64,000 nucleotides of DNA from Deltaproteobacteria bacterium (lineage in GTDB: Bacteria > Desulfobacterota > Binatia > UTPRO1). The stretch lies in contig JADLHM010000057.1 in the NCBI GenBank assembly GCA_020848745.1, positions 1-64,000 on the forward strand, read 5' to 3'. Below, piece by piece: positions 38,909-58,552 of this stretch (position 1 is its first letter; each line of letters opens with the position of its first letter). Under the pieces are notes generated by a model that worked only from the letters and a program-made list of their open reading frames with translations, had not been told where the DNA came from and did not search any database. The translations under genes were made by a program, and so were the position numbers.

Positions 38909-38936
38909 TTCCCGTCGGGAGTCGGAGGTGGCGGTG

Positions 38937-41228
38937 GTGTCGAGGAAAAGCGGTTCGATGCGGAGCCCGTGCGGGCCCGTGATGCGTCCGCACGGCGGCG
39001 GATGGGCGGTGGCCCTGGGGGCGACGGCGCTCGGGCTCCTGCTCGCCGGGATCGTGCTCGCGGCCCCGGGCGACCTCGACCGGAGCTTCGGCGACGGCGG
39101 CGTGGTCACGACGGCGGTCGGCGGCGTGCCGAACGCCGGCTACGCGCTGGTCGTCCGTCCCGACGGCGCCATCGTGGTCGCCGGCACGACCGGCACCGAC
39201 GTCGACCCGAATGACCTCGACGTCGCCCTGGTGCGCTACACGAGCGTCGGCGCTCTCGACCCGAGCTTCGGCGCCGGCGGCATCGTCCGCACGTTCGGTC
39301 CGTTCGAGGACACCCTCCGCGCGCTCGCGCTCGGCCCCGACGACACGCTGGTCGCCGCCGGCACGGTGACCGACGGCGCGAGCGCCGAGCAGCAGATCGC
39401 TCTCTACCGCTATCGCGCCGACGGGACGCTCGACCCGGGCTTCGGCACCGGCGGCCGCGTCGCCACGACCGTGAGCCCCGGCGCCGACCACGCCGAGGCG
39501 GTCGCGGTCCAGCCCGACGGCCGCATCGTCGCGGCCGGCGCCACCGAGGGGCGCGGCGATTTCGCGGTCGCGCGCTACGAGGCGGACGGCGATCTCGACC
39601 CGACCTTCGGCCGCGGAGGCACCGTCGCGACCGACATCGCCGGCGGGAGCGACGTGGCCTACGCGGTCCTCGTCGCGCCCGACGGCGCGATCGTCGTCGC
39701 CGGCACGGCGCAGCTCGGAAACGGCGGCGCGAACGCGTTCGCGCTCGTCCGCTACGACGCCGACGGCGATCTCGACGAGGATTTCGGCGATGGCGGCATC
39801 GTCGTCACGAGCTTCGGCCCGTTCGACGAGGCCCGCGCGCTCGTCCGCGACCCCGACGGAAAGCTCGTCGCCGCGGGGTCGTCCTTCACGGGTGAGTCCT
39901 TCGAGGTCGCGCTCGCGCGCTACACGGCCGACGGCGCGCTCGATCCGGCGTTCGGCGACGGCGGGCGCGTGACGACGCCGATCGGCGCCGGCCGGGCGCT
40001 CGCGCGCCAGGCGGACGGCGCCTACGTCGTCGCCGGCGAGGGCACGCGCGACGGCATCCCCGCGGTGGCGCTCGCCCGCTACGGCGCGGACGGAGCGCTC
40101 GACGCCGGCTTCGGCGACGGCGGCGTGGTGACCACCGCCGGCGGACGCGCCGCCGCCGTCGCCGTGCAGGCCGACGGCAATCTCCTCGTCGCCGGCACCA
40201 CCGTACTCGACGACTTCGTCGTCGCGCGCTACGAGGTCGGAACGGTCCGCCGCTGCGCCGACGCGAACCGCGACGGGGCGATCAGCGTCACCGACGGCGT
40301 GCTCGTGTTGCGCGCCGCCGCCGGGTTGCCGAGCGAGTGCGTGACGCTCGTCTGCGACCTCGACGGCAGCGGCGCCGTGTCGGTGAGCGACGGGGTCAAC
40401 ACGCTGCGGGCCGCCGCCGAGCTCGCGGCCACCATCGCCTGCCCGGTGCCCGCCGTCGACCTCGTGCGCGGCGTCGCCGGTCCGGACGGCGTCGCCGCCG
40501 CCCTCGCCGTCGAGAAGCCGCCCGTCCCCGCGAGCGGCGCCGCGCACCTCGTCACCAACCTCGCCGGCAACACCACCGCCGACACCGGCGCCACGGCGAG
40601 CGTCACCGCGTTCCTCGCGCCCGACACCGTCGCCGCCGCGGCGGCCGGTGAGGCCGTGCTCGTGATCGCGACCCGGGTCGCCGGCGAGTCCTGGACCGGC
40701 TACTGGCAGGTCCCGCTCGCCACCGACGCGACCGAGGCGACCGTGCGGGTCCAGTATCCGTCGAGCTTCGCGGCCGAGACGTTCGACCTGCTCTTCGCCG
40801 TCCGTCGGGGCGGCGTCCTCGGCGCATACGCGAGCCTCACGCAGCACACGCGGGTGATCGGCACGCCGACGCGCACCGCGACCCCGCGCGCGACTGCGAC
40901 GCTGCAGCCGCCGACGCCGACCAACACCGGCTCACCCGTGAAGACCGCGACGCCGACGCGCACCGCGACCGAGACCCCGTCACGGACGCCGACCCCGACG
41001 CGCACGCGCACCGTCACGCCCACCCGCTCCCCGACCCCGACCCGGACCGCGACCACGACGCCCACCCGCACCGCGACGCCGACAGCAACCCGCACCGCCA
41101 CGCCGTCCCGGACCCCGACGCCCACGCCAACGCGCACGGCGACCGCGACCCGGACCCCGACGGCCACCCCGACGCGCACGGCGACCCCGACGCGCACCCG
41201 CACGCCGACGCCGACCCCGACGAGCTAG
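38937..41228 (+). CDS. Secreted delta-60 repeat protein with dockerin-like module and Thr/Pro-rich tail
   Basis: A 763-residue exported protein. The signal peptide is [20 protein letters not shown]. Seven delta-60 repeats follow (each LD-x-x-FG-x-GG-x-V ... QPDG-x-IV-x-AG ... LARY-x-x-DG), which probably build a beta-propeller. From about residue 435 there is a four-Cys EF-hand-like module with loops [12 protein letters not shown] and [12 protein letters not shown] ending IACP, then a beta domain and a C-terminal tail of TATPTRT repeats (about residues 645-763). The GTG at 38937 is 7 nt after GGAGGT; GTGs at 38928 and 38934 are alternatives. Function is unknown, with surface display or Ca2+-mediated assembly inferred. 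Confidence 0.82.
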
Positions 41229-41272: not shown

Positions 41273-43099
41273 TCAGCCGCGGACGAGGCGGACGAGCCGG
41301 CGTTCGCCGGCCGCGAGGTCGCGGAACACGAGCCGCAGGCGGCCGTCGGCGCCTCCGAGCGACGCCACCGCGGGGGGCGCGCCCCGCACCGCTTCGACCG
41401 ACCAGGCCGCGCTCACGTCCGCGAGGTAGACCACGACGGCGAGCTCGGAGGCGGCGGCGCCGCTCGCGAGCTCGACCGTGACCGCACCCTCACCCGCCGC
41501 GACGACGCGCGTCGCCGCCCGCGAACGCACCCGCCACCATGCCGCCACCTCGCCGACCGTCGCCAGCCACACGCCCGGGAGGTTGCGGAGACCCGTCAGG
41601 TGCCGGACCCCGCCGCGAATCGCCGGCGCGTTCCAGAATTGCGTGTGGAAATCGAAGAAGTAGAAGCCGCCGAATCGCCGCACCTGCTGGAGGTCGCTCC
41701 GCATGGCGGTCCAGGCGCCGGCGACGTCCGCACCGTCGCGCCGCACCACGTACTCGAAGTCGTCGTGGGGAATGCGCGGGAGCACGACGACCGCCTTGCC
41801 GCCGCTCTCGAGCATCCACGGCTCGGCGCGGTCCTTGTCTCGCCAGCCGACGACCCAGTGGTAGCCCGTGGCGGCGAGCGCGGCGAGGGTATCGCCGTTC
41901 GTCTGCTCCTCCGGCGGGCGGAGGCCGATCACGGTGCGGCCCGTGCGCTCCCTCAGGATCTCCCGGCTCTCGACGAGCTGGGCGCGCTGCTGGTCCTCGT
42001 CCTGCTCGCTCAGCGGCCGGTGGTCGTGGGTGTGCGAGGCGATCTCGCTCGCCGCGGCGAGCGCCCGCAACGTGTCGGGGTGGTCGCCCGCGACCTTGCT
42101 GAGGACGAAGCTCGTGAAGGGCACGTTCGACGCCGCGAGGCGCGCGGCGATCGGCGTGCCCGCGGCGAACTCGTGCTCGGCGTCGAGGCCGATGGCCGCC
42201 GCGGCGCGCGCGCCCCGCGGCCACGTCTCCAGGTCGCCGAGCGGACGCCCGCCGGCCCAGGCGAGCGCATTCGCGACCAGACGATCGACACGCGCCGTCC
42301 CGGCGCCGCCGCCGACCACCGCCTCCGGCTCGAAGTTGAGCCACACCACCCGTCCCCGGCCGCGGACGGCCCGCGCCACGGCCGTCTGCGGCGGCCCCGC
42401 GCCTGCGTCGCGCGCGAGCATCGACCAGTCCACGAACTCCCCGACGGCCGTGTCGCTCGTGAGCGGCAGAGGCCGGTCGTACGGCTGGATCTCGACCCGC
42501 GCGCCGGCCGGGATCCCCGCCGTGACGCTCGTTTGCCCGTGCAGGGCGAGGTAGCGAGGCGCGGCGCCACCGTCGGCGTCGGCGAGCACGCGCGCTCCGA
42601 CGAGCGCGCCGAGCGGCGCGTAGCCGCGCCAGGCGCCGTCGGCGCCGTACACGCCGTACGTCCAGGTCGCGACGAGGCCGGCGCCGCGCTCGACCGCCGC
42701 GGCGAGCCGCGCCACGGTGTCGTCGTGGAGCGCCGCGGCCGACGGCGCCACGACGACCGCCGCGGGAGCGAGCGCGGTCGCGAGCGCGGTCTCGTCGACC
42801 ACGCGCACGCGCCCGCCCGCGGTCTCGATCCGGCGGCGCCAGGCCTCGATGCGGCGGTCGTACGCCTCGGGATCGGCGCCCGACACGCTCGCGAAGTGGC
42901 GCGCGGTCGCTTCGGCGCGCAGCAGCAGCACCGCCGCCCCCCCGCCCGCGTCGTCGGCCGTCGACAGCGTGGGCGGCGGCAGCGCCGCGACGACGTTCTC
43001 CTCGTCGCGTCCGTGCGTGATCAGCACGAACACCAGCAGCGCCGCGCTCACCACGGCGACCGTGACGGCGACCGCGAACAATGCGCGCAGGAACCGCAT
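41273..43099 (-). CDS. Exported polysaccharide deacetylase (NodB fold) with N-terminal amidotransferase-like domain; PgaB-like
   Basis: A 608-residue protein with an N-terminal signal anchor (LFAVAVTVAVVSAALLVFVL). Residues about 50-280 look like a Rossmann/amidotransferase-type (ThuA- or BPL_N-like) domain (APAAVVVAPSAAALHDD, RGRGRVVWLNFEPEAVVGGG). From about 305 the NodB fold has motif 1 GLDAEHEF, motif 2 SHTHDH and motif 3 LRPPEEQTNG. It ends in a beta-sandwich. Such enzymes partially de-N-acetylate exported PNAG-like polymers. It sits at the end of the porin/GT2/small-protein operon, so I infer a PgaB role with a different domain plan. Confidence 0.8.
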   Translation of the reverse strand: MRFLRALFAVAVTVAVVSAALLVFVLITHGRDEENVVAALPPPTLSTADDAGGGAAVLLLRAEATARHFASVSGADPEAYDRRIEAWRRRIETAGGRVRVVDETALATALAPAAVVVAPSAAALHDDTVARLAAAVERGAGLVATWTYGVYGADGAWRGYAPLGALVGARVLADADGGAAPRYLALHGQTSVTAGIPAGARVEIQPYDRPLPLTSDTAVGEFVDWSMLARDAGAGPPQTAVARAVRGRGRVVWLNFEPEAVVGGGAGTARVDRLVANALAWAGGRPLGDLETWPRGARAAAAIGLDAEHEFAAGTPIAARLAASNVPFTSFVLSKVAGDHPDTLRALAAASEIASHTHDHRPLSEQDEDQQRAQLVESREILRERTGRTVIGLRPPEEQTNGDTLAALAATGYHWVVGWRDKDRAEPWMLESGGKAVVVLPRIPHDDFEYVVRRDGADVAGAWTAMRSDLQQVRRFGGFYFFDFHTQFWNAPAIRGGVRHLTGLRNLPGVWLATVGEVAAWWRVRSRAATRVVAAGEGAVTVELASGAAASELAVVVYLADVSAAWSVEAVRGAPPAVASLGGADGRLRLVFRDLAAGERRLVRLVRG

Positions 43100-43107
43100 G
43101 CGCCGGC

Positions 43108-43308
43108 TCAGCTCCGCGGGAAGGCCGCCGAGCTCGGGGTCTCGGGAAGGACGAGACGCACGAAGAACACCTTGCGCGCCGGCTCCTGCATCGCGTGCGG
43201 GTGCCGCTTCTCACGGGCGCGGAAGGCCAGATACGAGAGCACTCCGAGCACGAGCGTCGACAGCGTCGCGATCAGCACGATGGTTGCGAGAATCGGTACG
43301 AGGTCCAT
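43108..43308 (-). CDS. Small single-TM protein in the exopolysaccharide operon (PgaD-position)
   Basis: A 66-residue protein with one N-terminal TM helix (DLVPILATIVLIATLSTLVLGVLSYLAF) followed by a basic cytosolic tail (RAREKRHPHAMQEPARK). GGAGAG lies upstream of the ATG. It is 17 bp after the GT2 synthase and 8 bp before the deacetylase, the position occupied by PgaD-type accessory subunits in PNAG operons. No sequence similarity to PgaD is claimed; the role is inferred from place and topology. Confidence 0.7.
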   Translation of the reverse strand: MDLVPILATIVLIATLSTLVLGVLSYLAFRAREKRHPHAMQEPARKVFFVRLVLPETPSSAAFPRS

Positions 43309-43325
43309 GGCGTCTTTCTCTCCGA

Positions 43326-44654
43326 CTAGGTCGACAAGCGTCCGAGACGCTCGAGCTTTCCCCACCCCATGCGCACCCCGGCGATCTCCTCGAAGGTGGC
43401 CAGCACTTTGCAAATGTCGATCAGGAGGATGTAGCTCATGCGGTACACGAGCGAGCACGGCACGAGCCGCAGATCCTCCTTCTCCGCGGCCGCGCTGAAG
43501 AGCGCGCCGATCGCGTCGAGCAGCGTCAGCTGCATCCACCAGAGCGCCAGGAGGCGCGTGGTCCCGTAGCGGACCGCGACCAGCAGGAAGAACGCGTTGG
43601 CGAAGACGTTCATCGCCGGCCACAGGATCGCCTCGAACATCATGTAGGCGATCGTCACGCGCGTTCCGAGACGCGGCCCCGATGCGCCGAGCAGGCCGAC
43701 GTGCTTGCGCAGCGCCTGCAGGATGCCGCGCGTCCAGCGGTAGCGCTGCTTGAGGAGCGGCATGAGCCGCTCGGGCGCTTCGGTGTAGGCGATGGCGCGC
43801 GGCTCGTACTTGATCTTCCAGCCTTCCCCCAGGAGCTGGAGCGTCAGGTCGCAATCCTCGGCGAAAGTGGCGGTCGAGTATCCCCCGGCCGCCAGCACGG
43901 CGTCGCGGCGGAAGATCCCGAGCGGCCCGGGCACGATGTTGACCGTCCGGAAGAACGCCTGCGCGCTTCGCATCAGGTTCAGGCCTTCGACGTACTCGAG
44001 CGCCTGCAGCCACGTGAGCAGGTTGCGGCGGTTCACCACCTTCACGTTGCCCGCCACCGCGACGACGTGGGGATCGGCGAAGTGCCGCATGCCGGCGCGC
44101 AGGCTCATCGGCGCCACGTGCGAGTCGCCGTCGACGCACATGACGAAGCCGCCGCGCGCCTCGCGGAGACCGCGGTTCAACGCCGCCGCCTTGCCGCCGT
44201 TCGGCTGCGAGAAGACCCGCACCTCGACCCGGCGCGTCCGTTGCGCCTCGTCGAGCGCGCGCCCGTACGTGTCGTCGGTCGAGCCGTCGTCCACGACGAC
44301 GATCTCGAGATTCGGGTAGTCGAGCGCCGCCAGGGAGCGGATCGAGCTCTCGATGCAGACCGACTCGTTGAAGGCCGGCACCAGCACCGAGACCAGCGGC
44401 GCCGCGGGATCCATCTCCGGGTCGCTCAGGCTCTCGAGGTGGCCGAGGAACGCGAACCACAGCATGGCGAAGTAGCGGATGATCAGGAGGACGAGGAAGC
44501 AGAGCAGCGCCGTCACGGACAAGTTCACGATCGCGTTGTCGATCGCGTAGTCCTCGCGCAGTACGGAGACGTAGAGCGCGATGGCGCCGATCAACACGCC
44601 GACGCACGCCGCCACGAAGAGCAGCGGGAACATCCCGGAGCGCTGCCGGCTCAT
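43326..44654 (-). CDS. Processive GT2 glycosyltransferase (PgaC/N-acetylglucosaminyltransferase-like)
   Basis: A 442-residue inner-membrane synthase. Two N-terminal TM segments (FPLLFVAACVGVLIGAIALY, VTALLCFLVLLIIRYFAML) precede the catalytic domain with SVLVPAFNES, IVVVDDGSTDD, CVDGDSH (D-x-D), AEDCDLTLQ and the processivity motif Q-R-Y-R-W. C-terminal TM segments follow (MMFEAILWPAMNVFANAFFLLV). These features match poly-beta-1,6-GlcNAc/hyaluronan-type polymerases that extrude the chain. The ATG overlaps the porin gene stop (ATGA). Polymer identity is inferred. Confidence 0.85.
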   Translation of the reverse strand: MSRQRSGMFPLLFVAACVGVLIGAIALYVSVLREDYAIDNAIVNLSVTALLCFLVLLIIRYFAMLWFAFLGHLESLSDPEMDPAAPLVSVLVPAFNESVCIESSIRSLAALDYPNLEIVVVDDGSTDDTYGRALDEAQRTRRVEVRVFSQPNGGKAAALNRGLREARGGFVMCVDGDSHVAPMSLRAGMRHFADPHVVAVAGNVKVVNRRNLLTWLQALEYVEGLNLMRSAQAFFRTVNIVPGPLGIFRRDAVLAAGGYSTATFAEDCDLTLQLLGEGWKIKYEPRAIAYTEAPERLMPLLKQRYRWTRGILQALRKHVGLLGASGPRLGTRVTIAYMMFEAILWPAMNVFANAFFLLVAVRYGTTRLLALWWMQLTLLDAIGALFSAAAEKEDLRLVPCSLVYRMSYILLIDICKVLATFEEIAGVRMGWGKLERLGRLST

Positions 44655-46804
44655 GACGCTCCGAAGCGGTACCGGACCGCGATCGTGCCGCTGTGGGCGA
44701 CGTAGCCGCCGCCGTTGCCGCCGCCGACGCTGCCGACGCGGCCCGTCTCTCCGTAGCGATAGCCAAACTCGGCGGTCAGGCCGCCGACCTCGGCGAGCGC
44801 GAGGCCGGCGCCGAAGCTGCGCTCGAGCGAGCCCTGTCCCTCCTCCTGTCCGTAGCCGACGCGCGCGTCGACCTGCAGCGCCACCTTGGGGGCGATCTCC
44901 TGGCGGACGATCGCGCTCAACCCCTGGGTCAGATAGCGCGCCGGATCCCAGTAGAGGTCGCTACGGTCCGCGTAGTCGAGGTACCCGGCGTCGAGTTTCA
45001 CCGTGACCCCCGGCTTCCGCAACACGCGCCGCGCGAGCGACGCCTGCAGCGCGACGAGGCGGTTGCCGTCGCTGTACCCGGCGACGCTGCCGGTGCCCGC
45101 GAGCTCGAGGCGCCCCGGCAGCACGTGCCGTCCTTGCACCCGCAGCCGATCGCCGTTCAGAATGCGGCGGTCGGCCGACGCGACGGTGAGCACCTCGTCG
45201 ATGAGGTCGTAGTGGTCGTAGGCGACGGCGACCTGGCTCTCCGGCCCGAGGACGCGCGTCAGCTCGACGGTCGCGCCGTGGCTCGTCCGCTCCTCGTCGT
45301 AGACCGTCGGCGCCCAGACCGCCGTGAGCCGCCAGCGGTCGTCGAGGTCGCGCAGCAGGCTGAAGCGGCCGCGATCGGCGCGCAGGCTCGCGCCGTGCTG
45401 CTCGTAGTCGGTGTGGACGATCGCGACGGCGACCTCGGTCGCGAGGTCGTGGCGCTGCCGCGCCTCGACCGTCACGCGCCGCTGCCGAAAGCCGTCGGAG
45501 TCCTGCACAGCCGTGAAGGTCGGGAGCCCCTCGGCGACGCCGCTCTCCGCGGCGAGAGCCTGCTCCGCCGCCCGCGCGTCCGCATCGTCGCCGCCGAGCC
45601 GCGTCGCCGCCCGGTAGTGGCGCGCCGCCGCCGCGCGCGCCCCCCCCCAGCGATACACGTCGCCGAGCATGCGCTCGGCGCGCGCCGGCGCCGTACCGCG
45701 CGCCGCCGCGATCTCCCGGGCGCTCTCGTCGAGCTGGCCGTCCCAGGCGAGGACGCTCGCGCGCTCGAGGCGGAGATCGAGGTCGGCGGGCGCCGCGGCG
45801 ACGAGCGCGTCGTACACAGCGAGCGCCCGTCCGTAGCGCCCCTCCCAGGAGAGCGTGCGCGCGAGCTGCCGCCGCGTCGTCGCGTCGTCCGGGCGGCGGC
45901 GGAGCTGCTCGTCGTAGAGCGCGACCGCCTCGGCGAAATCGCCCCGCTCGGCGAGCGCCGCCGCGAGCCCCGTCCGGGCGTCGGCGTCGTCCGGGCTCGC
46001 CGCCAGCCTGGCGCGCGCGGCGGCGACGCGCTCCGCGCTCCGCGTCCGGCGCTCGGCGCGCAGCGTCGCCTCGCGGCTCCGGAAGCGGCGGTCGCGCGGC
46101 CAACGCCGCCGCGCGCTCGCGAGCAGCGTGTCGGCGAGCGTGAACTGCTCGGCGGCGGCCGCCGCGTCGACCGCGAGCGCCCAGCGCCCGGCGTCGTCGG
46201 GATGCGCGCGCCGCTCCGCGTCGGCGGCGAGCGCGCGATGCGAGGGCGACGCGAGGAGGGCCGCGAGCGCCCGCTCGGCCTCGGCGCGCTGCGGATCGGC
46301 CGCGAGCGCGGCGCGGAGCGCCGTCTCCGCGTCTCCGAGGCGGCCGCTCCATTGCAGCGCGAGACCGAGCCCGAGAAGCGCGCCGGCGTCGCCCGCGTCG
46401 GCGGCGACGAGCGCCTCGTACTCCGCGATCGCCGGCGCGAGCTCGCCGCGCCAGGCGCGGACGTCGGCGCGCGCCTTGTGGAGAGCTCGGCGATCGGTGT
46501 CGGTCCCGCCACCCGCGAGCAACCGGCCGTACTCGGCCTCCGCACCGGCGAGGTCGTTCGTCTCCGTCAGCAGGTGCGCGAGCTCGACGCGCACCGCGCG
46601 GTCGTCGGAGTGGACCGCGAGCCACGCGCGGTAGAGCGCGACCGCGTCCGGCAGGCGGCGCGCCAGGTAGCACGCGCTCGCGCGCGCCAGCGTCGTCTGG
46701 CGGTCGCGGAGCGGCGGCCTCGGATCGCAGGGCGCGCTCGCGACCGCGGGATCACGCCACGAGACGAGCGCCAGGACGATCCACGTCCCGGCCAGACAGC
46801 GCAT
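44651..46804 (-). CDS. Exported TPR protein with C-terminal outer-membrane beta-barrel (PgaA-like)
   Basis: A 717-residue protein. The signal peptide is MRCLAGTWIVLALVSWRDPAVASA. About 11 TPR-like helical repeats run to residue 420 (for example ALLGLGLALQWSGRLGDAET, ARTGLAAALAERGDFAEAVA). The remaining 290 residues alternate as amphipathic strands (VTVEARQRHDLATEVAVAI, ELTRVLGPESQVAVAYDHY) and end RYRFGAS, typical of an outer-membrane barrel. The layout equals PgaA, the PNAG export porin with a periplasmic TPR scaffold. It is coupled to the GT2 gene by ATGA. A GTG four codons upstream is an alternative start. Confidence 0.8.
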   Translation of the reverse strand: MRCLAGTWIVLALVSWRDPAVASAPCDPRPPLRDRQTTLARASACYLARRLPDAVALYRAWLAVHSDDRAVRVELAHLLTETNDLAGAEAEYGRLLAGGGTDTDRRALHKARADVRAWRGELAPAIAEYEALVAADAGDAGALLGLGLALQWSGRLGDAETALRAALAADPQRAEAERALAALLASPSHRALAADAERRAHPDDAGRWALAVDAAAAAEQFTLADTLLASARRRWPRDRRFRSREATLRAERRTRSAERVAAARARLAASPDDADARTGLAAALAERGDFAEAVALYDEQLRRRPDDATTRRQLARTLSWEGRYGRALAVYDALVAAAPADLDLRLERASVLAWDGQLDESAREIAAARGTAPARAERMLGDVYRWGGARAAAARHYRAATRLGGDDADARAAEQALAAESGVAEGLPTFTAVQDSDGFRQRRVTVEARQRHDLATEVAVAIVHTDYEQHGASLRADRGRFSLLRDLDDRWRLTAVWAPTVYDEERTSHGATVELTRVLGPESQVAVAYDHYDLIDEVLTVASADRRILNGDRLRVQGRHVLPGRLELAGTGSVAGYSDGNRLVALQASLARRVLRKPGVTVKLDAGYLDYADRSDLYWDPARYLTQGLSAIVRQEIAPKVALQVDARVGYGQEEGQGSLERSFGAGLALAEVGGLTAEFGYRYGETGRVGSVGGGNGGGYVAHSGTIAVRYRFGAS

Positions 46805-46825
46805 CGATGCTCGCACGGGACGCTG

Positions 46826-48496
46826 CTAGGCGACGGCCTGCTTCGCCGCCCCCTCCTCCCGCCCGAGCGCGCGCGCCAGACTCTCCAGCAGCTCGTCGAT
46901 CGTCCCGCCGTCGCTCGGATAGGCAGCGGTCGCGGCGCGGAAGCCCGCCAGCACCTGCCCGGCGCCGCGCCCGCGCTCGGCGAGCCAGCCCTGCAGGCGC
47001 TCCGCGAGCGCCGTCACGTCGTCGCCGCCGGCGCCGAGCGCCACGACCGCGATCTCGGTCGGATGCAGCCAGCAGAGGATCTCCTGTCCCGCCAGCGCTT
47101 CCGGAAAGTCGTGCGGGGCGAGCGCGACCGGCCCGCCGGCGACCATCTCGCCGCTCGGCTCGAACCCGAAGCGGGCGACGAGCAGCGCGCAGCGCTCGGT
47201 CGCCTTCAACGCGGCGGCGACGCAGTCGCGCAGGAAGAGCGCGAAGGGGTCGCGCAGGCGGAGTCCGCCGCCGGCGGTCGTCACGAGCCCGGTCACCTCG
47301 TCCTCGGCGCTCGCCATCTCCACCGCGACGTGGCGACGCAGCTCCTCGAGCTCGTCGTACACATGCGGCGCCGCTGCGGGGTCGACGGTCACGAGGCCGG
47401 TGCCGAAGGCGACGCGGAACGGCCGACCCTCCGCCGGCGGCGTCACCCCGTGCATGCGTTCGAGCTTCAGCACGCCGGTCTGCCGGCCGCTCGCCTCGGA
47501 ACCGAGGACGATCGTGCCGAACGAGGAGCGCTTCAAGTAGGCGTTGGCGAGCTCCTCCTGCGGCGTGACGGGGTCGTCGGAGAGGACGAGCGTCGTCGCG
47601 CCGGTGCGCTCGAGCCCGTCGACGAGATCCGTCATGAGCGGCGCCGACAGCACCAACCGCGGCGCCGAGCAGAGAATGGTCAGGATCGAGTTGATGACGA
47701 TGCGCGACGCCTGACACTCGGCGGCGTAGCTCGCGATCTCGGCGGCGAGCGCCACGACGTCGTTGCGCGTCTCGAGCGCGTACTCGAAGCGCTCGGCGAG
47801 CCCCACCACCACGAGCTTTCCGGAGCGCACATGCGGCCGGAGATCGAGCCCGACGCTGCTGCCGACGTAGAGCACGGTGTCGACGCGGTCGGTCGTGACG
47901 AGCACCGCCCCCTCCCCGCGCTCGAGCGCGCGGTGCAGGAACTGGACGGCGAAGACGCCCTTGACTCCGCCCCCGGCGCCCTGCCCGAGATAGACGCGGC
48001 CGCGGCAGAGGCCTCCGACCTGTTCGTCGAGCGGCGCGATGCCCGTCGTCTCGAAGTCGAGGGGCCGCGGCCCTTCGGTGCTCTGCGCCGCCTGTTGCTC
48101 GATCACCCGGACCCGGCGGAGCTCGGCGTAGCGGCGCAGCGTGCCGCTCACCGTCGCGAGGAGCTGCTTGGCGGTGAACGGCTTCACGAGATAGTGCTCG
48201 ACGCCGAGCCGATTGCCGCGCTCGAGGCTCGTCGCGTCGCCGAGCGCCGACAGGAAGATGACCGGCACGGCGAGGAGCCGCGGGTCCTCACGCAGGCGCT
48301 CCAGCAGGCGGTAGCCGTCGACCTCGGGCATCATGATGTCCGAAACGACCAGATCCGGGACGAAGGTCTGCAGCCGTTCGAGCGCGCTCACGCCGGAATC
48401 GGCGGCCGTCACCTGATAGCCCTCGCGCTCGAGAATACGCGACGCGAGGAGTCTCACCTCATCGGAGTCGTCGACGACGAGAATGTGGGGACGCAT
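46826..48496 (-). CDS. Response regulator fused to degenerate KaiC/RecA-like and GGDEF-like domains
   Basis: A 556-residue protein. Residues 1-120 form a receiver domain with the acidic pair (VVDDSDE), phospho-acceptor Asp in DLVVSDIMMPEVDG and Lys in YLVKPF. Residues about 150-370 resemble a KaiC/RadA ATPase (GIAPLDEQVGGLCRGRVYL ... FAVQFLHRAL) but the P-loop reads GQGAGGGVKGV, without the usual GK[ST]. The last 140 residues align in pattern with a GGDEF domain (DPFALFLRDCVAAALKA ... AATAAYPSDGGTIDELLESL), with the GGDEF loop replaced by W-L-H-P-T-E-I-A. AGGAG lies before the ATG. It sits 21 bp before the PgaA-like gene on the same strand; a regulatory role in exopolysaccharide output is inferred. 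Confidence 0.78.
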   Translation of the reverse strand: MRPHILVVDDSDEVRLLASRILEREGYQVTAADSGVSALERLQTFVPDLVVSDIMMPEVDGYRLLERLREDPRLLAVPVIFLSALGDATSLERGNRLGVEHYLVKPFTAKQLLATVSGTLRRYAELRRVRVIEQQAAQSTEGPRPLDFETTGIAPLDEQVGGLCRGRVYLGQGAGGGVKGVFAVQFLHRALERGEGAVLVTTDRVDTVLYVGSSVGLDLRPHVRSGKLVVVGLAERFEYALETRNDVVALAAEIASYAAECQASRIVINSILTILCSAPRLVLSAPLMTDLVDGLERTGATTLVLSDDPVTPQEELANAYLKRSSFGTIVLGSEASGRQTGVLKLERMHGVTPPAEGRPFRVAFGTGLVTVDPAAAPHVYDELEELRRHVAVEMASAEDEVTGLVTTAGGGLRLRDPFALFLRDCVAAALKATERCALLVARFGFEPSGEMVAGGPVALAPHDFPEALAGQEILCWLHPTEIAVVALGAGGDDVTALAERLQGWLAERGRGAGQVLAGFRAATAAYPSDGGTIDELLESLARALGREEGAAKQAVA

Positions 48497-48642: not shown

Positions 48643-49200
48643 ATGATCGTGGTCGTGTACGGCTATGAAGGATCGGGCGAGGGGCACTGGCAGCGGTGGG
48701 CGGCGGCGGCGCTCGCGGCGGGCGGCGTCCGCGTCGCCTTTCCGGAGCTCTCGTCGCCCGCCGCGCCGCGGAAGGACGTGTGGGTCGCGGAGCTCGCCGC
48801 CGTCCTCGACGACGCGCGCCGGCGCCGCGACCCCGTGACGTTCCTCTGCCACTCGCTCGGGTGCTGGGCGCTCGACCACCTCCTGACCGAGCACGGCACG
48901 GCGGGCGTCCACGCGGCGCTTCTCGTCGCCCCGCCCTCGCCCTTCCTCGCCTTCGAGCCCGTCGACACCTTTCTGCCGCCGCCGCGCCGCGCCGACGTGT
49001 GGGCGCCGCTCGCGTCCCGGACCCTCCTCGTCGGCAGCGACAACGACGACTACGCCGGCCCCGAGGAGTTCGCGGAGATCGCGCGCACGCTCGACATCGC
49101 GTTCCGCGCCATGCCCGGCGCCGGCCACATCAACGTCGCCGCCGGGTACGGACCGTGGCCGTTCGTGCTCGAATGGGTCGCCGAGGTGGGCGCGCGCTGA
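48643..49200 (+). CDS. RBBP9/YdeN-family alpha/beta serine hydrolase
   Basis: A 185-residue small hydrolase. It starts VVVYGYEGSGEGHWQRWAA, with the G-x-x-G-x-x-x-H-W pattern of the family. The nucleophile elbow is F-L-C-H-S-L-G-C, the acid lies in VGSDNDDY and the catalytic His in MPGAGHIN. Members are cytosolic esterases of unknown natural substrate. It is divergent from the response-regulator gene and convergent with the histidine kinase, whose stop lies 2 bp away. No Shine-Dalgarno is visible. Confidence 0.88.
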   Translation: MIVVVYGYEGSGEGHWQRWAAAALAAGGVRVAFPELSSPAAPRKDVWVAELAAVLDDARRRRDPVTFLCHSLGCWALDHLLTEHGTAGVHAALLVAPPSPFLAFEPVDTFLPPPRRADVWAPLASRTLLVGSDNDDYAGPEEFAEIARTLDIAFRAMPGAGHINVAAGYGPWPFVLEWVAEVGAR

Positions 49201-49202
49201 CG

Positions 49203-50297
49203 CTAGAGCGGCAGCCGGGCGCGGACCACCGTGCCCGCGCCGACCGCGGAGGTCAGCTCCAGCGCGCCGCCGATCAGCTCGGCGCGCTCGCGCATACCGA
49301 GCAGTCCCATGCCGGTGGCGCGCGGGCTCGCCGCCTCGGCCCGGACGTCGAACCCCCGTCCGTCGTCGCACACCGTCAGCACCAGCATGCCGAGCTCGAG
49401 CGCGACGCGGACCTCCACGTGCCTCGGCGCCGCGTGCGCGATGGCGTTGCGCACCGCCTCCTGCGCGATGCGGAACGCCGCCGTCTCGACGTGCTCGGGA
49501 AGCCTCCGCTCGATCGTGCCCCGCACCGAGACCGCGCATCCCGAGCGCACCTCCTGACGCCGCGCGTGCGAGCGCAACGCGGCCTCCAGGCCGAGGTCGT
49601 CGAGCATGCTCGGCCGGAGAGCGAGTGAAGCGTCGGCGATCTGCCCGATCGTGTGGTCGAGGATCTCGAGCGAATCGACGAGGCGCGCGTCGCCGGCCAT
49701 GACGGCGTGGCGCGCGCGCAGCGCCTCGAGATTCAGCTTCAGCGCTGCGAGCTGCTGGCCGATCTCGTCGTGCAGCTCGCGCGCGAGCGTGCGCCGCTCC
49801 TCCTCCTGCACGGTCAGCAGGCGCCGCGAGAGGGTCTCGAGCCGCGCCGAAGACTCCAGGATCGTCCGCTCCGAGAGCTTCGCGGCCGTGATGTCCTTCA
49901 CGACCGACACGAAGTCGGTCGGGGCGCCGGCGGCGTCGCGCACGAGGGCGACGTGCAGCGCGGCCCAGACCGTCGTGCCGTCGGGTCGTACGTAGCGCTT
50001 CTCCATCGCGTAGGATCCGGCGGCGCCGGCCAGCAAGCGCTCGACGTGCGCCAGGTCCGCCTCGAGGTCGTCGGGATGGGTGATCTGCTGGAAGTCGCCC
50101 GCCAGCAGGCGCGCCCGGGGATACCCGACGATCTCGCAGAAGCGATCGTTCACCTCGAGGAAGCGCCCCTCCGGGGCGACGCGGGCGATGCCGACCGCGG
50201 CCTGCTCGAACACCGCCCGGTACCAGGCCTCGCCGTTCGCAGCTGCCCGCGGCGCGCGGCGCGCGCGGAGCCCTCGCGGCGTCCGGGCGGTGCCCAT
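49203..50297 (-). CDS. PAS-domain sensor histidine kinase (NarX/HisKA_3 class)
   Basis: A 364-residue soluble kinase. A PAS/PAC domain lies at about 22-145 (YRAVFEQAAVGIARVAPEGR, DFVSVVKDITAAKLSER). The dimerisation helix carries phospho-His in LARELHDEIGQQLAALKLNL, and the HATPase domain has IAQEAVRNAIAHAAP (N box), VCDDGRGFD (G1) and GMGLLGMRERAELIGG (G2). This class signals to NarL-type regulators; none is adjacent, so it is an orphan, and the receiver-fusion protein 700 bp upstream belongs to a different type. No membrane segment, so the signal is sensed in the cytosol. Confidence 0.9.
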   Translation of the reverse strand: MGTARTPRGLRARRAPRAAANGEAWYRAVFEQAAVGIARVAPEGRFLEVNDRFCEIVGYPRARLLAGDFQQITHPDDLEADLAHVERLLAGAAGSYAMEKRYVRPDGTTVWAALHVALVRDAAGAPTDFVSVVKDITAAKLSERTILESSARLETLSRRLLTVQEEERRTLARELHDEIGQQLAALKLNLEALRARHAVMAGDARLVDSLEILDHTIGQIADASLALRPSMLDDLGLEAALRSHARRQEVRSGCAVSVRGTIERRLPEHVETAAFRIAQEAVRNAIAHAAPRHVEVRVALELGMLVLTVCDDGRGFDVRAEAASPRATGMGLLGMRERAELIGGALELTSAVGAGTVVRARLPL

Positions 50298-53763: not shown

Positions 53764-56700
53764 CTACTTGCAGGTCAGCTTCGACGCCCCCGCCGCGCAC
53801 GACGGCGCCGACGGCGGGACGAGGAAGCGCGCCTCGCCGCACTGGTCGGTCCCCGGCATGGCGCCCGGCGGGTTGCCCGTGTCGTTGAGCTCGATCGCCA
53901 CCGTGATCGGCGACTGACCGGGCGCGAGCGGATAGCTGCCGCGGTCGCCGGAGATCGAGAACGTGACGAGGCCCGGAACCTTGGCCGTCTTGTCCGTCAC
54001 CACCACCTTCTTGATGCCGTTCTGCGACGGCGGCGCGGAGACCTTGTCCTGGTAGGTGAACTTGTTCGGCGGCGACCCGGACACCTTCCAGCCGACGGGA
54101 TTCGCGGCGGTGTAGATCCCTGCGGGCACGTGCTGGTCGACGACGAGCGCGCCGGTCGGCCCGAGCACGCGGACGTGGAGGCCGCGCGCCTGGGGCGCGA
54201 TCGGCGAGCCGCCGGTCGGGATGGTGACGGCGCCCGAGATCTTCACCTTCTGGAGCCCCGGAGCCTGGTCGAGCTTGGTGAACACGACCTTCGGCTTGAT
54301 CCAGTCGCCGGCCGTACCGAGGCGCGAGCACGGATCGCCGCCGCCGATCGCGGGCGGGCGCGCGAGCGCGCCGATGCAGTAGCCGTCGTCGTCGCTGTCG
54401 TTGTCGGCGTCCGCAGGACAGCGGTCCTGCGCCGTGCAGAGCCCGTCGCCGTCCGGATCGACGAGTCGGCAGAGCGTCGTGCAGCACTCGTCGGTGCCGT
54501 TCGCGGCGCCGGCGTCGCACTCCTCGCCGCTGTTCTGGATGCCGTTGCCACAGGCTTCGAGCCGGCACAGCTGATCGCAGCCGTCGCCCGGAACGACGCC
54601 GCCGTCGTCACACTGCTCGCCCGGGTCGCGGAAGCCGTCGCCGCAGGTCGGCGGGGCGTCGCGCGTCGAGGGCACGCAGAGGAGCGTCGCCTTCTGCGCC
54701 TGCAGCGTTTCGTCCGCGAACTCGTTCGCCGCCTGGAGCGTGCGCTTCTCGAAGGCCGTCTGCCCGGACGCCTGCCGGATCTTGTAGCAATGGATCTGCG
54801 CCGCCGGACTGATCGCCGGAACGCCGTCGACGTCGGTCGTGTTGCAGACGCTCTCGGGCTGCAGCACCGTGGAGAGCTTCTCCTCGAAGACATCCTGCAG
54901 GTGCATGTCCGCCGCGACGAGCTTCGGCGCGCCCGACGGCGTCTTCGCCGTGTAGCACTTGAAGCGATCGAGCCCCGGCGCGGCGGGGATGCCGCCGCTC
55001 CCGGCCGGCACGCAGAGGCGCTTCGCCTTCTTCAACGTGAGTTGCTGACCGTTGCCGAGCTCGTTGTCGACCGTCTCCGTGCTCGAGGCGAAGCGCGCTT
55101 GGCCGGGCGCGTCCTTGATCTGGTAGCACTGGAGGTGGGCGTCGGGATTCTGGATGCCCTGCCCGTCCTTGTCGACCGCGTTGCAGAACTCGGTCGTCTT
55201 GATGACGCGGGTGACCTTGGTCTCGACGCCGTCGACGAGCGTGACGCTGCGCTCGACGAATGCGGTCGCGCCGGAGGCTTTGCCGGCCTTGTAGCACTTG
55301 TAGTGATCCACGACGGCCGAGGCCGGCGTCGGCGTCGCGGTCGGCGTGACGGATGGCGTCGGGGTGACCGTCGCCGTGCGGGTCGGTGTGGGCGTACGGG
55401 TCGCGGTCGCGGTGGCGAGCGGGGTCGGCGTCGCGGTGGCGAACGGGGTCGGGGTCTCCGCCGTACTCGTCGGCAGGACGGGCGTCGCCGTCCGCGTGCC
55501 GAGCGGGGTCGCCGTGCGGCTCGGGGTCGGCGTCCGGGTCGGGCTCAGCGTCGGCGTCGCGGTCACCGTCGGGCAGAGGAACTGCGAGCAGGTCGCGTTG
55601 CAGCACGCGCCGTCGGCGGCCGCGCCCATGTCGCACGTCTCCCCGAACTGGCGGACGCCGTCGCCGCACACGGGGCAGTTCGGGAACGGCCCGTTCGCGA
55701 GGGGATTGTCGATGCGCGCCGGATTGAAGACGACGCCGGCGCCGATCACCGGGTTCACGCCGGGGAGATGCGTGGTCGTGACCGTGCCTCCCGGCGGCGC
55801 GACGTACTGCGAGCCGCCGCCGAGCTGCATCGCCCGCCGCGAGACGAGCTCGATGTCGGACCCGCCCGGCAGGCTCGTGACCGGGTTCACGCCGCCAGTG
55901 CCGTCGATCTTGACACTCGCCGCGACGCTCACGCCGCACCCCACGAGCGAGATGCTCTGTCCGCTGGCGTGCCCGGTTCCGCTCGTGGCGACGATGTTCT
56001 TCTGCACGGACAGGTTTCCGCTCCCGCCCTCGTCGCTCGCGAGCCCGGCCGCGACCTCGACGAAGCCGCCTTCGCCGTCGGCGCTCGTGCCGCGCGTCGT
56101 GACCACGCCGTTCACCGTCGCCGCGCGCCCCGCCGCCATGAGGACGTCGCCGCCGGCGTCGGTGCCGCTGTTGTCGAGCGCCGCGGTGAAGAACAGGTCC
56201 CGGCCGGCGCTGATGTCGAAGCTGCCGCCGTCGCCGCCGATGCCGCCGCTGTTCATCGAGATGGTGCCGCCGATCTCGAGGTCGCCGTCGAGCGGTCCGA
56301 GGACGTTCGGGTTGATGTCGCCGCTGTCGATCGTGATCGCGCCGCCGGAGCCGTCGAAGTTGGTCGCGGCGTCGACCCGCACGACCATGCCGGCGCCGAA
56401 GAACCGGATGCGGCCGGCGGCGAGGACGTCGAGCTCGCCGCCGTCGCCGCCGAACGTGTCGGTCGCGCTGCCGCGCATCAGCAGCGACGCGCCGTTCACG
56501 TCGATGCCGCCGCCGAGCACGCTGCCGCCGAGGAAGTCCTCGCCGGCATCGAGGGCGATGTAGCCGCCGAAGCCGCCGCCGACCGTGCTGTCGGCGTAGA
56601 CGCCGCCGTTCACGATCGAGATGTCGTCGCCAACGGTGGCGCTGAACTCGCCGCCGTCGCCGCCGCCGCCGTTCACGTTGATCGGCCGGGTGACGATCAG

Positions 56701-57384
56701 GCTGCCGCCCGCCGTGAAATCGCAGACGCCGCCGGTCCCGGCGTTCTGGGCGGAAAGGTTGATGTCGCCGCCGATGGTGATGCTGCCGGCCTGGGCGGCG
56801 ACGTCGAGCTCGCCGCCGTCGGTGAAGCGATCCCCGAGGTCCGCGAAACTGCTCATGCCGGGCCCGTCGAGCACCGCCCCGGGCTGCAGGACGACGTTCT
56901 GCGCCGCCACCAGGCGGATCGTGCCGGCCGAGTCGCCGGCCACGTCGATGTTGCCGTCGATGTCGATCGAGCCCGAGCTCGTGAGCGACACGACGCCGCC
57001 GGCGATGATGTAGCCGTTCGGCTTCACGAAGTCGCCGCGCGCCTTCAGCTTGCCGGTCGACGTGAGCGTGATGTGGCCCGCGTTGATCACCCGGATGAAG
57101 CCGAGCCCCGTCATCTGGAAGGTCTTCTCGATGCTGAGGGCGCGGCCGCCGAGGTCGAACTCGCACCCGCCGGCCGTGACGTCGATCGCCGTGGTCATCC
57201 GCACCAGCGTGGCGGAGCAGACGCCGGTCCCGCAGAACACGTCGGCGGTGTTGGCGAGCGCGTCGGGACCGCACGTCTTCACGACGGCGAACGCGCGGGT
57301 CGGCGCGGCGAAGACCGCGGCCGCGACGGCGGCGAGCAGCAACAGCGCGGGGCTCCCGAACGATCGGGGCTCGTGGGGATTCAC
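53764..57384 (-). CDS. Large secreted beta-helix surface protein with Cys repeats, Thr/Pro linker and KCY modules
   Basis: A 1206-residue exported protein. After the signal peptide (PALLLLAAVAAAVFAAPTRAFA) a long Gly/Asp-rich region (about 40-520) repeats strands such as GSIDIDGNIDVAGDSAGTIR and GGELDVLAAGRIRFFG, as in filamentous-haemagglutinin-like parallel beta-helices. Then come a Myxococcus-type repeat (CGDGVRQFGETCD), a TPT linker, and two about 100-residue modules starting K-C-Y and ending LCVP with conserved internal Cys. Two further CGDG/CGNG...CD repeats and a C-terminal beta domain complete it. The GTG at 57384 has AAGGAG upstream. Adhesin-like role inferred. Confidence 0.8.
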   Translation of the reverse strand: MNPHEPRSFGSPALLLLAAVAAAVFAAPTRAFAVVKTCGPDALANTADVFCGTGVCSATLVRMTTAIDVTAGGCEFDLGGRALSIEKTFQMTGLGFIRVINAGHITLTSTGKLKARGDFVKPNGYIIAGGVVSLTSSGSIDIDGNIDVAGDSAGTIRLVAAQNVVLQPGAVLDGPGMSSFADLGDRFTDGGELDVAAQAGSITIGGDINLSAQNAGTGGVCDFTAGGSLIVTRPINVNGGGGDGGEFSATVGDDISIVNGGVYADSTVGGGFGGYIALDAGEDFLGGSVLGGGIDVNGASLLMRGSATDTFGGDGGELDVLAAGRIRFFGAGMVVRVDAATNFDGSGGAITIDSGDINPNVLGPLDGDLEIGGTISMNSGGIGGDGGSFDISAGRDLFFTAALDNSGTDAGGDVLMAAGRAATVNGVVTTRGTSADGEGGFVEVAAGLASDEGGSGNLSVQKNIVATSGTGHASGQSISLVGCGVSVAASVKIDGTGGVNPVTSLPGGSDIELVSRRAMQLGGGSQYVAPPGGTVTTTHLPGVNPVIGAGVVFNPARIDNPLANGPFPNCPVCGDGVRQFGETCDMGAAADGACCNATCSQFLCPTVTATPTLSPTRTPTPSRTATPLGTRTATPVLPTSTAETPTPFATATPTPLATATATRTPTPTRTATVTPTPSVTPTATPTPASAVVDHYKCYKAGKASGATAFVERSVTLVDGVETKVTRVIKTTEFCNAVDKDGQGIQNPDAHLQCYQIKDAPGQARFASSTETVDNELGNGQQLTLKKAKRLCVPAGSGGIPAAPGLDRFKCYTAKTPSGAPKLVAADMHLQDVFEEKLSTVLQPESVCNTTDVDGVPAISPAAQIHCYKIRQASGQTAFEKRTLQAANEFADETLQAQKATLLCVPSTRDAPPTCGDGFRDPGEQCDDGGVVPGDGCDQLCRLEACGNGIQNSGEECDAGAANGTDECCTTLCRLVDPDGDGLCTAQDRCPADADNDSDDDGYCIGALARPPAIGGGDPCSRLGTAGDWIKPKVVFTKLDQAPGLQKVKISGAVTIPTGGSPIAPQARGLHVRVLGPTGALVVDQHVPAGIYTAANPVGWKVSGSPPNKFTYQDKVSAPPSQNGIKKVVVTDKTAKVPGLVTFSISGDRGSYPLAPGQSPITVAIELNDTGNPPGAMPGTDQCGEARFLVPPSAPSCAAGASKLTCK

Positions 57385-57441
57385 GACATACACTCCTTCC
57401 CGAAAACGCGAAGACTGCGATGCAGGGCGGCCAGAGCGCGG

Positions 57442-57471
57442 ATTATGCGGGCATGGCGAATGCCGGGTCAA
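57442..57471 (-). promoter_or_regulatory. Promoter of the large beta-helix surface-protein gene
   Basis: On minus, TTGACC (57471-57466), 18-nt spacer, CATAAT (57447-57442), both 5/6 to sigma70 consensus. The implied leader is about 50 nt with an AAGGAG Shine-Dalgarno. This is the clearest promoter in the window. Confidence 0.6.
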
Positions 57472-57547
57472 ATAGAAATCTGCGGCGGCCTCGGCGGCTT
57501 GAGCGGTCGGAGCGGCGCGCGTATGAGCGGTAGCGCGAGCCGGGACC

Positions 57548-58552
57548 GTGGGAAGCGCACCGAAGCCAGATTTTCGCATCGTTCTCCGGGCCGCCAGCCT
57601 CCTGAACTCGTCGCTCGACGTCGGCGTCGTCCTGCGCGAGCTCCTCGACGGCCTCGACCGCCTCCTCTGCCCGACCCATTGGTCGCTCCTCCTCCGCGAC
57701 GAGGCGACGGGCGAGCTCGTATTCACGCTCGTCCGCGGCGAGGCTCAACCCCAGCTCCTCACGCGCCGCCTCGCGCCGGACGAAGGCATCGCGGGCTGGG
57801 TCGCCACCCAGGACGAGGCGCTCCTGATCCCCGACGTCGCCCACGACCCGCGCTTCTCCGCCCGCATGGACACGCTCTCGGGCTTCCGCACCCGCTCCGT
57901 CGTGGCGGTGCCGCTCAGGGCGCGGGCCCGCTGCATCGGCGTCCTCGAGATCGTGAATGCGCTGCACGAGCGGGTCTTCGACGCCACCGATCTCGAGATC
58001 CTGCAGAGCTACGCCGACTTCGCGGCGATCGCCATCCACAACGCCCGCACCCACGAGGCGATCGTGGAGTTCGCCAAGAACGACCCCCTGACGGGCCTGC
58101 GGAACTCCCAGTACTTCATTCGCGCCATCGAGGAGGCCATCGCGCGCGGCGAGCGCTTCGCGATCGTGTTCTTCGACATGGATCGCTTCAAGCGGCTGGT
58201 CGACACGCACGGCCACGTGCGGGGCAGCGCCGCCCTCGCGGAGGTGGGCCGGTGGCTCGGCGGCGAGCTCGCGCCCGGCGAGGTCGGCTGCCGCTTCGGC
58301 GGCGACGAGTTCGCCCTCCTCTTCGCCGGCGCCGACCGCGCCGCGGCCGACGCCCGCTGCCGCGATCTCGCGGCTCGGCTCCAAGCCCGCACGTTCCTCG
58401 CCGACGAGGGCATCCACGCGACGCTCGGCGCATCCTTCGGCGCGGCGGCGTTCCCGGTCGACGGCGACACGCCGGCCGCCCTCCTCCACCTGGCCGACGC
58501 GCGCATGTACGTCTCGAAGCGCGCCCGGCAGATGGCACGCGGCGCCGACTGA
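57548..58552 (+). CDS. GAF-GGDEF diguanylate cyclase
   Basis: A 334-residue soluble protein. The GAF domain covers about residues 12-165 (HWSLLLRDEATGELVFTLVR, GIAGWVATQDEALLIPDVAH, VVAVPLRARARCIGVLEIVN). The GGDEF domain follows (NDPLTGLRNSQYF, FFDMDRFKRL, intact R-F-G-G-D-E-F-A-L-L), so it should make c-di-GMP from two GTP. The I-site RxxD five residues before GGDEF is not evident. It diverges from the large surface-protein gene with a 163-bp gap, and the Pga-like operon lies about 10 kb away. GTG start with only a weak GGGAC upstream. Confidence 0.9.
   Translation: MGSAPKPDFRIVLRAASLLNSSLDVGVVLRELLDGLDRLLCPTHWSLLLRDEATGELVFTLVRGEAQPQLLTRRLAPDEGIAGWVATQDEALLIPDVAHDPRFSARMDTLSGFRTRSVVAVPLRARARCIGVLEIVNALHERVFDATDLEILQSYADFAAIAIHNARTHEAIVEFAKNDPLTGLRNSQYFIRAIEEAIARGERFAIVFFDMDRFKRLVDTHGHVRGSAALAEVGRWLGGELAPGEVGCRFGGDEFALLFAGADRAAADARCRDLAARLQARTFLADEGIHATLGASFGAAAFPVDGDTPAALLHLADARMYVSKRARQMARGAD

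Follow-up and report, generated by a model that had tools for sequence, protein, structure and literature searches.

The regulator gene and its neighbours

The 64,000-nucleotide stretch of DNA analysed here (the window) carries on its minus strand, read from 48496 to 46826, a gene whose ATG start is preceded by GAGAGGAG and whose 556-aa product (the regulator) joins a receiver domain, a KaiC-like domain and a probable degenerate GGDEF domain. These are the coordinates given for it in an earlier note made from the letters of this DNA, and they are correct. The locus was compared between the window's genome (G000, 4.88 Mb, 99.5% complete) and two congeneric species, G146 (about 89% complete) and G147. 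The genes that enter into the comparison are the following.

38928..41228, plus strand: DUF5122 beta-propeller gene with a TPTR-repeat tail, on the far flank of the cassette; its orthologue in G146 is 77% identical
41273..43099, minus strand: polysaccharide deacetylase (PF01522, E=8.4e-17) with a weak Glyco_hydro_42M-like N-terminal region (PF08532, E=1.1e-5)
43108..43308, minus strand: small 66-aa cassette protein with one apparent TM helix, 80% identical to the protein at the equivalent place in G147
43326..44654, minus strand: PgaC/IcaA-like GT2 polymer synthase (TIGR03937, E=1.8e-56, 191.8 bits against a cutoff of 422.3)
44651..46816, minus strand: PgaA-like TPR and outer-membrane export protein (TIGR03939, 29.7 bits against a cutoff of 366.65; TPR families)
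46826..48496, minus strand: the regulator, REC - KaiC-like - degenerate GGDEF (Pfam, orthologues, dN/dS)
48643..49200, plus strand: Ser_hydrolase gene, divergent from the regulator (PF06821, E=1.2e-34)
49203..50297, minus strand: PAS - HisKA_3 histidine kinase, a candidate partner of the regulator (Pfam, synteny)
57548..58552, plus strand: GAF-GGDEF gene, bearing the sole PF00990 domain above cutoff in the genome and syntenic in G146 and G147

Because both scores fall below their cutoffs, the PgaA-like and PgaC-like proteins are, as judged by profile matches, related to Pga and not equivalogs of it. The gap between the regulator and the PgaA-like gene is 21 bp, as previously noted, when measured to the ATG at 46804, and 9 bp when measured to the upstream GTG at 46816. 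Promoter and terminator scans returned no sites, and an Rfam scan of the window returned one tRNA and nothing else. On the other side of the regulator, the Ser_hydrolase gene adjoins it in all three species, with a PIG-L gene also among the neighbours in each. The HisKA_3 kinase was considered as an obligate neighbour and rejected as such; it is adjacent in G000 and G146, and the closest copy in G147 (66%) lies on a different contig, near metabolic genes and not polymer genes. Further along the window, the minus strand at 53764-57726 encodes a secreted-looking protein of 1320 aa, with DUF7450 and DUF4215 as well as a TPTR-rich segment, whose gene is syntenic in all three species.

Full-length orthologues of the regulator were found in both congeners, with 89% identity in G147 (P0003) and 76% in G146 (P0004). 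No full-length relatives were detected in the 145 other genomes of a 148-genome sample of the class, which included three other genomes of the family, and a plasmid search with residues 141-556 gave no match. The regulator is known from three sequences of one genus, all from genomes that are draft or metagenome-derived. Whole-gene dN/dS was 0.17 against G147 and 0.27 against G146. By module, it was 0.11-0.14 for the receiver, 0.14-0.30 for the KaiC part and 0.19-0.30 for the GGDEF-like part, and the frame is open in all three species. The gene is maintained, with purifying selection in every folded module.

An intact receiver and an altered KaiC-like domain

Within the regulator, the domains and motifs lie as follows, all on the minus strand.

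48149..48484, minus strand: receiver domain, residues 5-116 (PF00072, E=2.1e-27)
47453..48046, minus strand: KaiC/RecA-like domain, residues 151-348 (PF06745, E=4.9e-20, over the curated cutoff)
47954..47986, minus strand: degenerate Walker A GQGAGGGVKGV, residues 171-181
46862..47308, minus strand: probable degenerate GGDEF-fold domain, about residues 397-545 (hhalign, shuffles, AF2 model)
47048..47071, minus strand: WLHPTEIA, residues 476-483, at the position of the GG(D/E)EF loop (alignment A2)

The receiver, described in the earlier note as intact, retains the conserved residues of the family, with the acidic pair D9/D10, the putative phospho-acceptor D53 (encoded at 48338-48340), S83 and K105 invariant in all three species. 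The assignment of the second domain likewise held up, as did its P-loop in the form quoted; in addition to the Pfam match, which is the strongest to PF06745 in the regulator's own genome, a phmmer search of solved structures returned KaiC chains (E=3.5e-18). In the resulting alignment GAGGGVKG stands opposite GTPGTGKT of KaiC, such that the Lys is retained, the Mg-binding Thr has become Gly and the last Gly has become Val or Ala. This Lys179 is invariant among the three species, and the altered P-loop region is under strong constraint (omega 0.07-0.14), with the loop of G146 being one residue shorter than those of the other two. The Walker B Asp is Asn in two of the three species and is retained as Asp in G146, and the FEE motif of KaiC is replaced by TDR or TER, with loss of the catalytic Glu. 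Neither the Walker A consensus GxxxxGK(S/T) nor the catalytic Glu pair of KaiC ATPases is thus present. Because the P-loop Lys is kept, the domain may nevertheless still bind nucleotide.

The C-terminal domain

The proposal that the C-terminus is GGDEF-like was the weakest part of the original claim. Pfam found the receiver and the KaiC domain in the whole protein and then nothing above threshold, and an hmmscan of the C-terminal domain gave no GGDEF match even at E<=10. When a profile of the three orthologues was aligned to a profile of 15 GGDEF-type domains, however, hhalign returned 76% (P=2.2e-5, 140 columns). Three controls (the domain reversed, the receiver and the KaiC part) gave 0.2-0.9%, and none of 100 column shuffles exceeded 4.3%. 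When 395 genomes of the phylum were scanned, and several weak matches excluded as wrong frames or unrelated proteins, the two best weak matches outside the regulator were a degenerate GGDEF-like and a GGDEF-type domain. The best of these weak matches, at positions 1501-1719 of locus L143, is itself a divergent GGDEF-like domain, with LLPLKPGRFALL at the GGDEF loop and RTGD retained, followed by the apparent start of a receiver.

Structure prediction, which had been proposed for residues 150-556, was run on the full length and on the C-terminal domain. A full-length AlphaFold model from the three orthologues was poor (pLDDT 39.5) and was not used as evidence. An AF2 model of the C-terminal domain reached pLDDT 70, and every one of the 50 structures that Foldseek listed for it contained a GGDEF domain (best E=5e-4); because the input alignment itself contained GGDEF sequences, both results are taken as supporting only. 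For the same reason a PDB search by hmmsearch was rejected as circular, since its query, alignment A2, contains GGDEFs. On balance a GGDEF fold for this domain appears likely.

In alignment A2 the DxxTG start of the domain is retained and the Mg-binding Asp is replaced by Ala, while about ten residues of the FKxxNDxxGH catalytic helix are absent. WLHPTEIA, previously singled out as the signature loop, does lie opposite the GGDEF loop, where the core reads HPTEI in the window and HPTEI, HATEI or NPAEI across the three species. All three catalytic hallmarks that we looked for (GG(D/E)EF, the Mg-binding Asp and the FKxxND helix) are therefore missing. The I-site RxxD, by which c-di-GMP receptors of this fold are recognised, corresponds to A469-G-Q-E472 within a segment, LAGQEILCWL, that is invariant in all three species. 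From these alignments we conclude that the domain is probably GGDEF-derived and predicted to lack both catalysis and a canonical I-site. The earlier expectation that neither downstream domain would be catalytically competent is borne out at the level of motifs, with the Mg-binding Thr/Ser and catalytic Glu lost from the KaiC part and the catalytic helix and GG(D/E)EF lost from the GGDEF part. c-di-GMP binding, for which the note proposed assays, finds no support at the canonical I-site given the change of Arg to Ala469.

The GAF-GGDEF enzyme of the window

The regulator's GGDEF-like domain shares 23-24% identity with that of the neighbouring GAF-GGDEF protein, versus 16-23% with other GGDEFs (alignment A2), values too close to speak for or against direct paralogy of the two. 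Neither EAL nor PilZ domains were detected in the window's genome. The GAF-GGDEF protein combines RFGGDEF with a selectivity residue that is Ser (DTHGHVRGS), and it aligns to a Geobacter GGDEF chain (6d9m, E=6.4e-24). Val stands at what we take to be the counterpart of the Asn by which PleD contacts guanine. Hypr enzymes, which make cGAMP, are marked by a Ser or Thr selectivity residue together with a GGDEF motif (PMC6456294, PMC9140294). The GAF-GGDEF protein conforms to this sequence rule and is predicted to be of the Hypr (cGAMP-type) class.

The regulator with and without the polymer cassette

In G000 and G147 the regulator lies upstream of the same four cassette genes (PgaA-like, GT2, small TM protein and deacetylase), in identical order and on the same strand. 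As the intervening gap is 9-21 bp, the regulator is probably co-transcribed with the cassette in these two species. The arrangement in G146 is different. About 85 bp past its regulator begins the tail of a TPTR-repeat gene that runs towards it, inside the repeat of which the contig (C5) stops, and the G146 orthologue of the window's own TPTR gene was found, among the contig ends inspected, at the end of contig C11, broken in a similar repeat tail. Orthologue searches of G146 with the PgaA-like protein, the GT2 and the deacetylase found no counterpart of any of them. The simplest reading, in which the join is inferred from the contig ends, is that C5 and C11 meet inside the TPTR gene and that G146 is without exactly the cassette.

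Comparison of the cassette (41273-46816, minus strand) with the ends of L114 and L227 shows what appears to be a four-gene unit, lying between the regulator and the TPTR-repeat beta-propeller gene, that is present or absent as a whole within one genus.

Because G146 keeps the regulator without the cassette genes, the regulator must have a role independent of them, and the polymer cassette cannot be its sole target. The suggestion that the regulator controls polymer synthesis or export was therefore only partly upheld: the cassette adjoins it in G000 and G147, but a dedicated link is unsupported. The same architecture beside pga-like loci, a pattern named in advance as a check, occurs in two of the three homologues, and the third is the kind of homologue, free of any polysaccharide locus, that was named as contrary evidence.

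Comparison with known systems

The closest parallel in composition is BcsE, a regulator of cellulose secretion in E. coli that combines a RecA-like domain, its Walker A divergent, with a receiver and a GGDEF domain that are both degenerate; PelD, a degenerate GGDEF-fold protein of exopolysaccharide secretion, senses c-di-GMP through its I-site (PMC7439463). BcsE and the regulator have in common a RecA/KaiC-like domain, a receiver fold and, probably in the regulator's case, a GGDEF fold devoid of catalysis, and BcsE is part of an exopolysaccharide machine. The order of the modules, however, is RecA-REC-GGDEF in BcsE and REC-KaiC-GGDEF in the regulator, and whereas BcsE has a degenerate receiver and an RTGD I-site, the regulator has a working-looking receiver and no I-site. 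Membership of the BcsE family was rejected, there being no PF10995 match at E<=1 and an hhalign value of 0.6% with E. coli BcsE. With PelD the regulator probably shares a degenerate GGDEF fold linked with exopolysaccharide, but it differs in having no I-site Arg and in its REC-KaiC N-terminus.

Diguanylate cyclases of the PleD type (REC-GGDEF) resemble the regulator in their phospho-competent receiver, which is putative in the regulator, and their C-terminal GGDEF fold, which is probable there, but in the regulator a KaiC-like domain is inserted between the two and the catalytic helix, GG(D/E)EF and I-site have been lost. With the RecA-fold ATPases of the KaiC type (PF06745) it shares fold and sequence family, but its Walker A and Walker B motifs and the catalytic Glu are altered. 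A different family of the class, f17 (L092, L094, L096, L098, L101, L102 and L104), has REC-KaiC proteins of about 400-440 aa whose genes recurrently adjoin single-domain KaiC genes. These proteins have the receiver, linker and KaiC-like domain of the regulator, but they have an intact P-loop (e.g. GSLGSGKS) and no GGDEF-like C-terminus. On the strength of these proteins, REC-KaiC is an already existing architecture in this class.

Proposed function and alternatives

We slightly favour the view that the regulator is a phosphorylation-gated response regulator that acts by binding other proteins and neither binds DNA nor catalyses a reaction. D53, judging from the intact receiver, would be phosphorylated; phosphorylation would alter the assembly or exposure of the KaiC-type pseudo-ATPase and the GGDEF-fold pseudo-enzyme, possibly through oligomerisation, and these would then bind or release partner proteins. 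The polymer machine would be a possible client in the two cassette-bearing species, with at least one further client lying outside the cassette. The phosphorylation-controlled binding switch of the earlier note is thus consistent with the intact receiver, the two motif-stripped domains and the purifying selection, and switch behaviour itself is what we infer from them.

Several other readings were weighed against this one. That the regulator is dedicated to the adjacent polymer secretion machine, being recruited to the synthase/export complex to control its assembly as BcsE or PelD do, fits the shared strand, the short gap and the order kept in G000 and G147, as well as the three module types of BcsE (PMC7439463); with an orthologue persisting in G146 without the cassette, homology to BcsE undetectable and the I-site Arg absent, we find it rather doubtful. 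The KaiC domain could instead bind ATP through its retained Lys and form a ring or dimer switch whose assembly is controlled by the receiver. The invariance of Lys179, the constraint on the altered P-loop, the Walker B Asp of G146 and the REC-KaiC proteins with intact P-loops elsewhere in the class all speak for such a switch, but the replacement of the Mg-binding Thr/Ser by Gly and of the last P-loop Gly by Val or Ala, the off-by-one loop length in G146 and the disappearance of FEE make it unlikely.

Degenerate GGDEFs have become receptors in BcsE and PelD (PMC7439463), and the GGDEF-like domain here might similarly be a cyclic-dinucleotide receptor that reads, via a non-canonical site, the product of the single GGDEF enzyme 9 kb away. 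In its favour, the sole GGDEF enzyme detected is encoded in this window, its gene is syntenic across the three species, and neither PilZ nor EAL was found in the genome. Such synteny is nonetheless expected within one genus, and with Ala in place of the canonical I-site Arg in all three species we consider this receptor quite improbable. More speculative still, and in our estimation a long shot, is that cyclic-dinucleotide signalling in the genus is down to a single GGDEF enzyme of the Hypr type, which would form cGAMP, and a single receptor, the REC-KaiC*-GGDEF* protein, which would join phosphorelay and dinucleotide input in one non-enzymatic switch (asterisks marking the degenerate domains). 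Finally, the loss of catalytic motifs from two of the three domains and the narrow distribution might be read as decay of a gene without function, an explanation that we find scarcely credible: with dN/dS of about 0.17-0.28 for the whole gene, far under 1 in every folded module, and a reading frame that stays open in all three species, the gene is not decaying.

Since one species has the regulator without the cassette, a general role and any polymer role of this putative binding switch are experimentally separable. Regulation of exopolysaccharide machines by degenerate enzyme domains is a recurrent theme, as in BcsE and PelD (PMC7439463). The regulator described here is apparently unrelated to BcsE and has the same three module types in another order, with a receiver that still looks phosphorylatable, which would suggest that the combination evolved repeatedly as a platform for binding.
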